From Mycolicibacterium porcinum (lineage in GTDB: Bacteria; Actinomycetota; Actinomycetes; Mycobacteriales; Mycobacteriaceae), in assembly GCA_001942045.1 (NCBI GenBank), contig MSTD01000054.1:1-34888 (forward strand): DNA of 34,888 nt, in the 5' to 3' direction. This document shows positions 15,231-34,888 of the stretch, piece after piece; the first letter of the stretch is position 1, and each line of letters begins with the position of its first letter. The position numbers were made by a program, and so were the translations under genes. Below the pieces are notes generated by a model, which saw only the letters and a list, made by a program, of their open reading frames with translations, was not told the origin of the DNA and did not search any database.

Positions 15231-16034
15231 TCAGCGAGCGGGGCTGCCGAAGAACTTGAGGATCGTCGAGTTCACCTCGTCGGGTCGTTCAAGGAAACCA
15301 AGATGACCCGCATCAGCAATTTCGCGGTACTGCCCGTTCGGAATTGCTTGCGCCACCTCGGCACCCAGATGCGGGGGCATAACGAGATCGTCGGCGAATC
15401 CGATCACCAGCACCGGGGTGGTGATCGAGCGGTACGCGGGCAACCTGTCAGTGCGCGGGGCGACGTCATATTGGGCGCGCACCCCGGGGGTCGGCTTCGT
15501 CGGCCACATGGTGAAGGTGTCAATCCAGTCCCCGGACAACCGGTCGTCGTTCAAGGTCTTCGGGGAAAAGTTCTCCAGCAGACGGAGTTTGGCTTCGAAG
15601 GTGGACGGCAGTTGAACACCCGCGCGAGCCAGGTCCTCCTCGGCCTGGCGAAAGAATTCGCGGGTGCGGTCATGCCGACCGCGAGTGGCGAGCAATGCGG
15701 CTTGGGTGACCAATTCAGGGTGGGTCAGCATCAATTCCTGTGCGATGTATGAACCCATCGACACAGCCACGATCCGCACCGGACCACCGACCACCTTCTT
15801 GATCAGCTGCGCCGTATCAGCAACCATCGTTTCGGTGGTGAAGTCGTCCGAGTGGGCGGTCGCCCCCACCCCTCTGTTGTCGAACGTGATGGCGCGATAA
15901 CCTGCCGCCAGGAATGCGGGTACCTGGTGGAGCGCCCAGGTACGCCCCACACCGCCCTGGCCGGCAATGAAAAGCACGGGGTCTCCGCTGCCACGATCTT
16001 CATATGTCAACTCAAGAATGGACGTATCCTCCAC
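15231..16034 (-). CDS. Alpha/beta hydrolase linked to the FAAL
   Basis: The 267-residue protein has the alpha/beta-hydrolase order: oxyanion region LFIAGQGGVGRTW (21-33), FDNRGVG (51-57), nucleophile elbow AVSMGS with Ser92, acid GFADDLVMP (Asp215/216) and His244 in DAGHLGF. A cap domain lies between about 125 and 185. There is no signal peptide, so it is cytosolic. It is 50 bp downstream of the FAAL on the same strand. A type-II-thioesterase-like or acyl-releasing role for the neighbouring PKS, which lacks a TE, is an inference; a general esterase is equally possible. The start is GTG at 16034 without a strong ribosome-binding site. Confidence 0.85.
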   Translation of the reverse strand: MEDTSILELTYEDRGSGDPVLFIAGQGGVGRTWALHQVPAFLAAGYRAITFDNRGVGATAHSDDFTTETMVADTAQLIKKVVGGPVRIVAVSMGSYIAQELMLTHPELVTQAALLATRGRHDRTREFFRQAEEDLARAGVQLPSTFEAKLRLLENFSPKTLNDDRLSGDWIDTFTMWPTKPTPGVRAQYDVAPRTDRLPAYRSITTPVLVIGFADDLVMPPHLGAEVAQAIPNGQYREIADAGHLGFLERPDEVNSTILKFFGSPAR

Positions 16035-16084
16035 TCGCTCAGGGTAACTCGCGATCAGACCGACGTGTCGGTCAACGACCGAAC

Positions 16085-32300: not shown

Positions 32301-34888
32301 CACATCCTGGTGTTCGAACGCAGCGACGCTGCGCTGGCGCACTTGAGCCAGCAACTCGGCCACAGTTGGGTCTCCCGACAGGTCGACTCGCAACACCAAC
32401 GTGTTGACGAAGAATCCGACCACCTCATCGAGAGCGGGATCATTGCGTCCCGCGATGGGAAAACCGACGGCGACGTCGCTGCTGGCACTGATCTTCGATA
32501 ACAACACCGCCAAAGCCGCCTGCACCACCATGAAGGTGGTGACGCCATGTTCGCGCGCCATCTCCCGCACGCGCTGCTGCAAGTCAGGCGGCCAATCGAT
32601 TGGCACTCTCGAACCAAGGTAATCGGCCACCGGCGGATATGGACGAGCAGTAGGCAATTGCAGTTGCTCCGGCATTCCGGCCAAGGCATCCTGCCAATAG
32701 GCCAATTGCCCGGCGATTCGGCTGTTCGGATCGGTGAGCTCACCGAGGTGCGCACGCTGCCACAGTGTGTAATCCGCGTACTGCACGGGCAATGGTGCCC
32801 AATTGGGTGTGAGGCCTTCCTGCCGCGCCGAATAGGCCTGCGCAATATCACTGACCAACGGAGCGATCGACATCCCGTCCGCAGCAATGTGGTGCACAAC
32901 CATCGCCAACAGGTGCTCACCATCGGCTACCCGTATCAGTTTCGCCCGCAAGGGAATTTCGTGCATCAGATCGAAGGGATGACGCACTGTGTCTTCGACA
33001 ACTGCATCCAGCTGATCCTCCGGCAAAGCCGTAGCATCCGAGATCTCCCAGCCGAAATCCGCCTGCTCCGCCGGTAGAACGACTTGTTGTGGTATTCCGT
33101 CGGCGTCGGGGAACACGGTGCGCAGGCTTTCGTGACGGGACACGATGTCGGCCAGAGCGGCTCCTAGCGCTTCGACCTCGAGGGGACCGGTCAGCCGCAG
33201 CACCGCCGCCATGTTGTATACCGCTGACGCGCCCTGCAGCTGGTCTAGGAACCACAGTCTGCTTTGCGCGAACGACAACGGAATCGCGGCTGGGCGATCA
33301 CTCGCCACCATCGGTTCACGTCTGCCCGCTTCCCCACTGACCCGAGGAGCCAACTCGGCGATCGTGGGCGCGTCGAACAATGCACGCACCGTCAGACCTG
33401 CGTCCAGACTGGAATTTATCGCTGAAACTAGGCGCATCGCGGAAAGAGAATCTCCGCCGAGGTCGAAGAATGAGTCGCCGACTCCGACTGTCGCGATGCC
33501 CAGCACATGACAGAAAAGTCCCGCGAGGAGCTCCTCGACAGCACCAATGGGTACGCGGTGTCGACCACCACTCTGATAGTCCGGTGCCGGCAACGCACGG
33601 GTGTCGAGCTTTCCACTGACCGTCAGTGAGAATCCCTCAACGACCACGACTGCGGCAGGCACCATATACGCAGGCAATCGTTCACTCAAGGCGCTGCGTA
33701 CCTTTGCGGGATGCGCGGTACCGGTGATGTAACCGACAAGGCGCTTGTCACCTGGGCGGTCCTCGCGAGCGATGACGACCGCCTGCTCCACTCCGTCAAG
33801 GTCTGCTAGCGCTGCCTGCACATCCCCCAGCTCAATGCGGTAGCCGCGGATCTTCACCTGCTCGTCGGAGCGGCCTAGATACTGCAACTGCCCATCGACA
33901 CCCCAACGCACCAGATCCCCGGTGCGATACATCCGTGCCCCCGGCAATCCGAAAGGACACGGCAAGAACCTCGTCGAAGTCAAACCCGGACGGCCCACGT
34001 AGCCAACTGCCACTCCGCGACCCGCCACGTACAACTCACCGACCACCCCTGTCGGCACTGGCTGCAGATAGCGGTCCAACACGAACAGCGCCGCCCCTGG
34101 CACCGGCACACCGATCGGCACCACACCCGAACCCGCTGTCAGCGGAGCACTGATCGCCGCGTACACCGTCGCCTCCGTCGGGCCGTAGGCATTGATCATG
34201 GTGCGCCCCGCCACCGCCCACCGATCCACAAGATCGGCAGGGCATGCCTCACCAGCGACCACCAACGTGGTCGCCTCTAAACGTTGCGGCGAAAGTACCC
34301 CAGCGGCCGACGGAGTCTGTCCCACAACCGTCACCTCTTCGCGGGTCAACAGCGCATGAAAGTCCTTGGGGGAGGCCGCAATGTCCTCTGGTATCACGAC
34401 TAACCGTGCCCCACGCGAGAGCGCGGCCCAGATCTCCCACACCGACACGTCGAATGAGTACGAATGCCATTGAGACCACACAGACCCTGGACCGCTGACC
34501 AATTTCCGATCGGCGTCGAGAGCCTCCAGCAACGCGATGACGCTGCGATGTTCGATCGCCACGCCCTTGGGGACCCCCGTGGTGCCCGACGTATAGATGA
34601 TGTACGCAATGTCGTCGCCCGCGGGTGGTGGCAATGGCGTGCCGTCCTGGCGAGCAGTCCGAGCATCCTCGATATCGATTACCGCCAGGTCGTATCCGTC
34701 CAACCGGCCTGCAAAAGACGCGGTCGTGACGGCAGCTACCGGGACGGCATCACCGAGGATGACGCCGATGCGTGCGTCCGGGTGCGCCGGATCAATCGGC
34801 ACATACGCCGCCCCCGTCTTGAGCACCGCCAGCATCGCCACGACCGCCTCAGCCGAACGCGAGAACAACAACGCCACACACCGACCCG
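29349..34888 (-). CDS. Nonribosomal peptide synthetase, C-terminal two modules with thioesterase (A-PCP-C-A-PCP-TE), 5' end outside window
   Basis: The minus-strand frame is open from the right edge to TGA at 29349-29351 (about 1846 codons). In order: adenylation domain 1, starting inside its N-terminal part (to about 33610; YTSGTTGVPKG, FDVSVWEIW, NAYGPTEA); PCP1 (GGDSL near 33450); condensation domain with HHIAADG (about 32888); adenylation domain 2 (about 31900-30390; FDFSVWEIW, MYGTSETT); PCP2 (GGDSL near 30255); thioesterase (about 30090-29352) with GWSFGG (29860-29877) and His in VHGEM (29409-29423). By eye the selectivity residues of A2 are D-F-W-S-V-G-M-V-H-K, 8 of 10 identical to the threonine code. 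A1 reads D-V-W-G-V-A-A-V-Y-K, which I cannot assign. No epimerisation or methylation domain is visible. The TE releases the product by hydrolysis or cyclisation. Confidence 0.95.
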   Translation of the reverse strand, partial: GRCVALLFSRSAEAVVAMLAVLKTGAAYVPIDPAHPDARIGVILGDAVPVAAVTTASFAGRLDGYDLAVIDIEDARTARQDGTPLPPPAGDDIAYIIYTSGTTGVPKGVAIEHRSVIALLEALDADRKLVSGPGSVWSQWHSYSFDVSVWEIWAALSRGARLVVIPEDIAASPKDFHALLTREEVTVVGQTPSAAGVLSPQRLEATTLVVAGEACPADLVDRWAVAGRTMINAYGPTEATVYAAISAPLTAGSGVVPIGVPVPGAALFVLDRYLQPVPTGVVGELYVAGRGVAVGYVGRPGLTSTRFLPCPFGLPGARMYRTGDLVRWGVDGQLQYLGRSDEQVKIRGYRIELGDVQAALADLDGVEQAVVIAREDRPGDKRLVGYITGTAHPAKVRSALSERLPAYMVPAAVVVVEGFSLTVSGKLDTRALPAPDYQSGGRHRVPIGAVEELLAGLFCHVLGIATVGVGDSFFDLGGDSLSAMRLVSAINSSLDAGLTVRALFDAPTIAELAPRVSGEAGRREPMVASDRPAAIPLSFAQSRLWFLDQLQGASAVYNMAAVLRLTGPLEVEALGAALADIVSRHESLRTVFPDADGIPQQVVLPAEQADFGWEISDATALPEDQLDAVVEDTVRHPFDLMHEIPLRAKLIRVADGEHLLAMVVHHIAADGMSIAPLVSDIAQAYSARQEGLTPNWAPLPVQYADYTLWQRAHLGELTDPNSRIAGQLAYWQDALAGMPEQLQLPTARPYPPVADYLGSRVPIDWPPDLQQRVREMAREHGVTTFMVVQAALAVLLSKISASSDVAVGFPIAGRNDPALDEVVGFFVNTLVLRVDLSGDPTVAELLAQVRQRSVAAFEHQDVPFEVLVDRLKPTRSLAHHPLVQVMLAWQNFDGQIRSEALTLGDVQAVPLPAETHTARMDLTFSISERWSATGEPAGIGGAVEFRTDVFDTENIASMVAQFERVLMAMTESPTERLWSIDMLDEAERGCLDELGNREVLNQDSLEAASIPELFAEQVARTPEAVAITFDDTSLTYHELDLASTRLAHLLIGKGAGPGSRVALLLPRSIKAVTAILAVLKAGAAYVPIDPAHPDARMKYMIEDAGPIAVVTTGELVDRLSRYDLHIVDVDDARVGRQPITQLPAPAADDLAYLVYTSGTTGVPKGVAVPHGNVTQLLEVLDARVPRCGTWTQCHSLAFDFSVWEIWGPLLGGGRLLVVPDPIARSPQDLHALLVAEHVSVLSRTPSAFYALDAVDALASGQVRPLQLDAVVFGGEPLEPHRIRSWFDRHPEPPRMINMYGTSETTVHASFRELTADDAESTASPIGMPLTHLGFFVLDGWLRPVPAGALGELYVAGDALAHGYVGQAGLTASRFVACPFGGVGARMYRTGDLVRWDPSGELLYVGRADEQVKIRGYRIELGEVEAVLAQLDGVEQAAVIVREDNPGDKRLVGYVTGTADAVRLRNELAERLPAYEVPAAIVVLDSLPLTVNGKLDARALPSPNYGIGSGYRAPTNAVEEKLASIYGEILGLDRVGVDDSFFDLGGDSLSAMRLITTINRNLDVELSVRTLFQTPTVSGLSHQLDKESGDVEVNPVEVLKEGIGSPVFCIHPGGGVSWPYHVLGQYLDGPIVGIQRISQGVEAEPEQIRDMAKQYADRIQGVDSTGPYKILGWSFGGVVAQAVGVELRRRGSEVSRLVMLDALPTTDSSVEQAEVEAHILEEVLRFFAIPVPQQDEPLSSEQVEGLVRERGAMEFARYKPILELLAKNLSDSTMLHRAHVPEPFDGDLVIFSAGREENRGLSALQSWRPFVTGEIREFSVDAVHGEMLSPESLVMYGEQLKSSLEG

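Follow-up and report, generated by a model that had tools for sequence, protein, structure and literature searches.

We have analysed a stretch of 34,888 nucleotides from Mycolicibacterium porcinum (assembly GCA_001942045.1, contig MSTD01000054.1), hereafter the window, in which coordinates count from the first letter and strands are given as (+) or (-). From position 15231 to its right end, the window encodes an alpha/beta hydrolase, a fatty acid-AMP ligase (FAAL), the Hsp90 protein HtpG, an iterative polyketide synthase (PKS), a membrane protein of the SfLAP or Gap-like type, an O-methyltransferase and the C-terminal part of a nonribosomal peptide synthetase (NRPS). We conclude, with a probability of about 0.72, that these genes belong to a lipopeptide cluster, of the type found at the same chromosomal site in members of the M. 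fortuitum complex, and that the FAAL, PKS and NRPS make one acyl-peptide. The cluster is recognised by its gene content, domain order and site; it begins at a sharp junction, and its htpG belongs to a distinct branch of HtpG sequences. A wider reading, which we hold tentatively and at somewhat less than even odds, is that this HtpG branch joined such lipopeptide clusters and moves between species with them, being both a dedicated synthase chaperone and the only HtpG of the genome, and that fortuitine is the product of this site in the M. fortuitum complex, where the exchange of entire cassettes gives each species an envelope lipopeptide of its own.

The sulfotransferase-SDR DNA left of the cluster is 94% identical to that of M. 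porcinum (G010) and 93% identical to that of M. septicum (G004; G and L numbers denote our genomes and loci), and it was matched in 370 of 396 Mycobacterium genomes. Among the matches listed, at least 19 genomes had an SfLAP gene about 17-26 kb from the site on the same contig, and 16 of these 19 were fetched as site relatives (G135, G199 and G282 were left out). All 16 contain the flank, FAAL, PKS, SfLAP, NRPS and two open reading frames (ORFs) of 956-1144 residues, which is MmpL size; considering that these loci were chosen for SfLAP presence, the count shows co-occurrence and not cluster frequency. Both members of the M. houstonense ORF pair are MMPL proteins by Pfam, this being the only pair so tested. 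The hydrolase was found in 15 of the 16 relatives and HtpG in 11 within the fetched stretch, less than 120 bp after SfLAP in 8 of these 11. Among the best 24 flank-match genomes, SfLAP lies nearby in 16 and on a different contig in one (G325), and seven gave no match to it at 1e-50. An earlier sequence-only reading of this DNA had claimed that the genes belong together, and their recurrence as a set at one site bears this out.

The features of the window are the following.

15231-16034 (-): alpha/beta hydrolase (Pfam; counterpart in the site relatives as counted above)
16085-17866 (-): FAAL (NF004509, 966 bits, above the cut-off of 775)
17967-19874 (-): htpG, Hsp90 (NF003555, 734 bits, cut-off 371; PF00183; ATP-site motifs)
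20393-26752 (+): iterative type I PKS, MAS-like, KS-AT-DH-ER-KR-ACP (profiles and motifs)
26980-27798 (+): SfLAP / Gap-like membrane protein (PF11139, 177 bits, above the cut-off of 35)
28486-29295 (+): class I O-methyltransferase, Mtf2/Rv2952-like (NF045823, 383 bits, above the cut-off of 300)
29349-34886 (-): C-terminal part of the NRPS, A-PCP-C-A-PCP-TE, running off the right window end
33588-34886 (-): NRPS A domain, cut, code DVWGVAAVYK, Ala-like by position in relatives
31923-33284 (-): NRPS condensation domain, HHxxxDG intact
30387-31865 (-): last NRPS A domain, code DFWSVGMVHK, Thr-like
29364-30086 (-): NRPS thioesterase (TE) domain, PF00975, GWSFGG and VHGEM
15228-15250 (no strand): identity junction against relatives (DNA alignment and gene order)
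14318-15223 (+): resident flank, IclR-type regulator (Pfam)
12295-13140 (-): resident flank, SDR (Pfam)
11147-12298 (-): resident flank, sulfotransferase (Pfam)

Profiles and motifs confirmed the FAAL, PKS, Gap-like protein, O-methyltransferase and TE-ended NRPS where the sequence-only reading had placed them. It had described all else as well, with the exception of the htpG between FAAL and PKS, which it overlooked. The catalytic residues that it had called intact are in place, partly by pattern and partly by eye. Patterns matched the KS cysteine, HGTGT, AT GHSLG, the ER and KR nucleotide sites and the KR S/Y/N residues of the PKS, HHxxxDG, GGDS (twice, in the PCP domains) and GWSFGG of the NRPS, the SAM motif of the methyltransferase and the ATP-site motifs of HtpG. 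For the second KS histidine, DH, ACP, FAAL and TE histidine, the patterns missed or hit wrongly, and NFGH, HPWLADHQVRNVAVLPG, GMDSL, YTSGSTRTPAG and VHGEM, respectively, were read by eye instead. Against NF045825, the Mtf2 fatty-acid O-methyltransferase model, the methyltransferase scored 391.7, below the cut-off of 400.

Left of the cluster, positions 327-13140 encode a P450, a lipid-transfer protein, a thiolase, an F420 oxidoreductase, the sulfotransferase and the SDR, a cholesterol-catabolism-like set that we take to resemble the Rv3518c-Rv3530c region. Among the scanned window ORFs no PapA or glycosyltransferase family was seen, although no search was aimed at either. No phage match for the window was found, and a plasmid origin was rejected, as 11 plasmid records matched partly and none over 80% of the query. 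Large Streptomyces-family plasmids, of Streptantibioticus cattleyicolor and Embleya (H1-H3), matched at about 72% over the htpG portion of the query and have no gene listed there. A promoter scan gave one consensus match, which was not used.

HtpG matches at E 1e-100 occur in 283 of the 396 Mycobacterium genomes, with one htpG row in 282 of them and two in G270. An even draw of 98 genomes gave 72 with htpG, one each, and 9 of these 72 copies lie within 3 kb of NRPS, PKS, FAAL or SfLAP genes (for 19 of the 72 the reading extended no further than about 3 kb to either side, and some contigs stop before that). This linkage is weak by itself, and we put weight on a contrast in the HtpG tree. The tree holds 107 rows: 71 from the even draw (one fragment dropped), 9 site loci, 26 loci picked from the HtpG matches and labelled by hand, and the window. 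All 36 cluster-linked rows fall in one branch of 40 with support 98, and the cluster label changes 4 times on the tree, against a mean of 30 when shuffled. Within the even draw, 9 of the 11 copies inside the branch are cluster-linked, and 0 of the 60 outside. The other four rows of the branch are G177, with an MmpL pair 0.8 kb away, G022 and G266, with an MmpL about 4 and 7 kb from htpG, and G091, where nothing was found. The non-cluster htpGs have several conserved neighbourhoods, of 27, 10, 8 and 6 genomes.

It has a little under an even chance that htpG stands beside the cluster by accident or as a vertically inherited neighbour, unrelated to the synthases. The low share of linked copies in the even draw would fit this, as would the varying position and order of htpG inside the cluster, and with a single row in nearly every genome the copy could be a general chaperone; the contrast of 9/11 with 0/60, however, speaks against it. 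So does the grouping of the window HtpG away from its species neighbours, that is, its moving with the cluster: the window groups with G005 and G349 (support 99) in a marker tree of 31 cluster-type rows only, and with G172 and G038 (support 84-90, not starred) in the HtpG tree of the same comparison. In all five loci inspected, the alignments lacked an in-frame TGA that the marker gene had seemed to contain, and this codon was taken as the end stop. Two facts weigh against the main reading here: the fetched stretch lacks htpG in 5 of the 16 site relatives, and the cluster-bearing G059 and G329 are not among the genomes with an htpG match. Accordingly, considering that the cluster is present without htpG in some genomes, htpG is not obligatory. 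Where present, HtpG would act as a chaperone of the giant synthases, aiding their folding or stability.

In at least nine genomes, and at various sites, SfLAP immediately precedes htpG in the same orientation (G317, G281, G050, G070, G145, G349, G126, G256 and G009). A 456-residue protein without Pfam or NCBIfam match adjoins htpG in L093 (1712-3082), and relatives of it (84% and 74% identity) stand beside htpG in L213 and L221.

We infer substrates, product and export as follows. The FAAL would activate a fatty acid as acyl-AMP, and the PKS, in all likelihood using malonyl units, would lengthen it into a straight, saturated chain for transfer to the first condensation domain of the NRPS, whose N-terminal part is outside the window. 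The NRPS would add a peptide ending in an Ala-like residue and Thr, and the thioesterase would free the product as an acid or a lactone. A hydroxyl of this product is the probable target of the methyltransferase, and SfLAP may aid in exporting it. Two points weigh against a single acyl-peptide pathway. The window holds just the C-terminal NRPS part, and the start, the module count and further genes lie beyond it. In addition, PKS and SfLAP are on the (+) strand, FAAL and NRPS on the (-) strand; we grouped PKS, FAAL and SfLAP as opposite to the NRPS, and no co-expression is known.

The opposite strands would suit two separate pathways, one leading through FAAL, PKS, SfLAP and methyltransferase to an acyl lipid, of trehalose or another kind, and the other through the NRPS to a peptide that has nothing to do with it. 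FAAL-PKS-SfLAP sets without an NRPS are known for trehalose lipids, and M. vulneris (L097/L098) has a FAAL and an O-methyltransferase with a PKS 11 kb apart, where no NRPS was matched. We nevertheless consider this division unlikely, as an NRPS comes next in all 16 site relatives, and FAAL, PKS and NRPS stand together at other places too (L002, L010, L192 and L194). Furthermore, the first NRPS at the site opens with a condensation domain in G005, G030, G300, G126 and G340, as one would expect if the peptide is acylated.

At the left end of the cluster, the DNA identity drops: against G329 from 93.0% (up to 15228) to 71% (from 15250 on), against M. porcinum from 92.5% (up to 15232) to 72% (likewise from 15250 on) and against M. 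houstonense from 86% to 71% across the junction. The flank proteins of the window share 94-98% identity with their counterparts in M. porcinum G010 and G329, and its cluster proteins span 39-78% identity to the site relatives: hydrolase 71-78%, FAAL 66-69%, PKS 69-74%, SfLAP 39-48% and HtpG 76-78%. Among the site relatives themselves, the ranges are 74-97%, 72-95%, 70-95%, 47-94% and 77-95% in the same order, which places the window FAAL outside the relatives' range and lets the other four overlap at its low end. The GC fraction of the NRPS is 0.614 in the window versus 0.635-0.666 in six relatives. Among the fetched loci, the closest FAAL, HtpG and PKS are in L191 and L192 (G038 and G172), and the window hydrolase has its best matches in the site relatives. 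The FAAL-HtpG-PKS order of the window is found in L191, L192, L194, L195-L198, L200, L203, L205 and L216. L192 with L289 (G172) and L191 with L290 (G038) have this order with NRPSs that contain C-C pairs, a likely sign of epimerisation domains and D-amino acids.

By gene order, the relatives hold about 7 kb with the two MmpL-size genes at the junction. The M. houstonense MmpL, carboxyl methyltransferase-like (ICMT-like) and 465-residue proteins have no relative in the window beyond chance matches, and the window methyltransferase stands at the position of the ICMT-like one. The lack of MmpL that the sequence-only reading had noted therefore holds for the window copy and is peculiar to it. The simplest reading is that a foreign cluster took the place of the resident one from around the end of IclR onwards; the window cluster would be the incoming allele, arriving without the MmpL pair, and this direction of the swap is our interpretation. 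The slight overlap of the PKS, SfLAP and HtpG identities with the lowest values among relatives weighs against replacement. It is quite unlikely, however, that the cluster simply evolves fast in the window lineage: cluster genes are more divergent than flank genes among the relatives too, yet the identity falls inside about 20 bases, the window FAAL is 66-69% identical to that of all 16 relatives, whose FAALs are 72-95% identical to each other, and the best FAAL, HtpG and PKS matches lie in other species sharing the window gene order. The site is one where lipopeptide cassettes differ and are seemingly swapped between species.

In the synthesis of glycopeptidolipid (GPL), the last NRPS releases alaninol reductively. 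The window NRPS has a PF00975 thioesterase and no reductase, and we rejected GPL identity by this end, in agreement with the sequence-only reading, which had also called the cluster unlike GPL. A GPL-type product with sugars added by genes beyond the window is very unlikely, as the Mtf2-like methyltransferase, Gap-like protein, FAAL and PKS that it would share stand with a Thr module and TE, not an alaninol-forming Mps2 end, and no glycosyltransferase was seen among the named site-relative hits (not all ORFs of these relatives were scanned). The closest relative of the window methyltransferase (71%), found in Mycobacterium sp. MFM001 on contig C25, has a GT28 glycosyltransferase and a sugar dehydratase in its vicinity, which would suit such a product; this contig was rejected as the closest cluster, with the methyltransferase near sugar genes and thus accounting for the methyltransferase only. 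Its loci L095/L096 form a GPL-like locus with methyltransferases and two SfLAP genes besides these sugar genes. Compared with the GPL locus of M. smegmatis and M. abscessus, as given in an excerpt of PMC1885439, the window has in common FAAL (fadD23), pks, a Gap-like export protein, the O-methyltransferase family (fmt, rmt) and an NRPS-made acyl peptide. The MmpL pair of that locus is shared by the site relatives and not by the window, which also differs from the excerpted locus in TE release, in having no glycosyltransferases in the scanned ORFs, in its other modules and in its site.

The window PKS aligns over 870 residues with the structure 5bp1 and with MAS, and it shares the KS-AT-DH-ER-KR-ACP order and a close sequence kinship with MAS and Pks2-type synthases. 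The earlier label of a MAS-type PKS stands in these respects and is weakened by the AT motif: MAS and 5bp1 read GHSMG and VASH, the window GHSLG and VAFH. VAFH is common to 15 of the 16 site relatives, and in G256 the pattern found no motif. The xAFH form marks malonyl, and a straight chain is therefore expected. Methyl branching of the MAS type is disfavoured by this motif, although the score of 3605 against NF041183, the Pks2-type phthioceranic acid synthase model (cut-off 2400), points to methyl branches and weighs against a straight chain.

Fortuitine, made by M. fortuitum, is an acylnonapeptide in methyl ester form (Barber et al. 1965, as cited in PMC3509699). By its A-domain codes, the NRPS pair of M. 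houstonense has nine modules and a TE end, in the order C-Z, X+nMT, Z, Z, X+nMT, Thr, Thr, Ala-position, Pro-position, TE. The nMT domains were confirmed in modules 2 and 5, the Thr codes stand at 6 and 7, and ICMT-like and weak WS/DGAT-like genes are neighbours at the site. Set against the residue order of fortuitine, this assembly line, as read from its codes, fits the peptide in its length, its pattern of repeats, the N-methyl positions and the Thr pair. The sequence-only reading was thus right to name fortuitine as a comparison, and its term "orphan" was too strong. Against the fit weigh the Pro-position code DVWNVAGYTK, which differs from the usual Pro code, and the assignment of Val, Leu, Ala and Pro by position only. 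We found no genes for fortuitine in the literature searched (subscription journals lay outside the search), and among the records listed no title or abstract start named this cluster. If the assignment is true, the genes for a lipopeptide described in 1965 are at hand, and an envelope role in the M. fortuitum complex is testable by gene removal. Two alternative TE-ended NRPSs stand at one site in M. houstonense (L092/L093) and also in G004, G329, G349, G131, G298 and G256; a single N-terminal NRPS, where read, may feed two end halves and yield two lipopeptides.

Judged by its last two modules, the window is not the fortuitine cluster. Fortuitine would call for Thr-Thr-Ala-Pro and TE, and the window, which holds the last two modules only, ends in an Ala-like code, a Thr-like code and TE, upholding the earlier description of a Thr-like module before a thioesterase. 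The code numbering and the Thr code of the last A domain are those we presume to apply; a Thr code stands last in none of 38 other TE-ended NRPS ends parsed (27 + 11, not all independent). The fortuitine-type M. houstonense copy and the window have in common the chromosomal site, FAAL, PKS, SfLAP and a TE-ended NRPS. The window is without the ICMT-like methyltransferase and the MmpL pair, and it has, unlike that copy, a class I methyltransferase and an htpG between FAAL and PKS.

A link of htpG to mycobacterial NRPS clusters was not found by title or abstract start among the records listed from the literature searched. By residing in these clusters, htpG hints that a bacterial Hsp90 can become coupled to specific giant synthases. 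According to an excerpt of PMC10269695, HtpG is required for the synthesis of albicidin, colibactin and yersiniabactin. Those systems and the window share an Hsp90 linked to giant PKS/NRPS synthases; on the one hand, albicidin, colibactin and yersiniabactin need the general HtpG, and on the other hand, the HtpG branch described here is encoded inside the clusters themselves.

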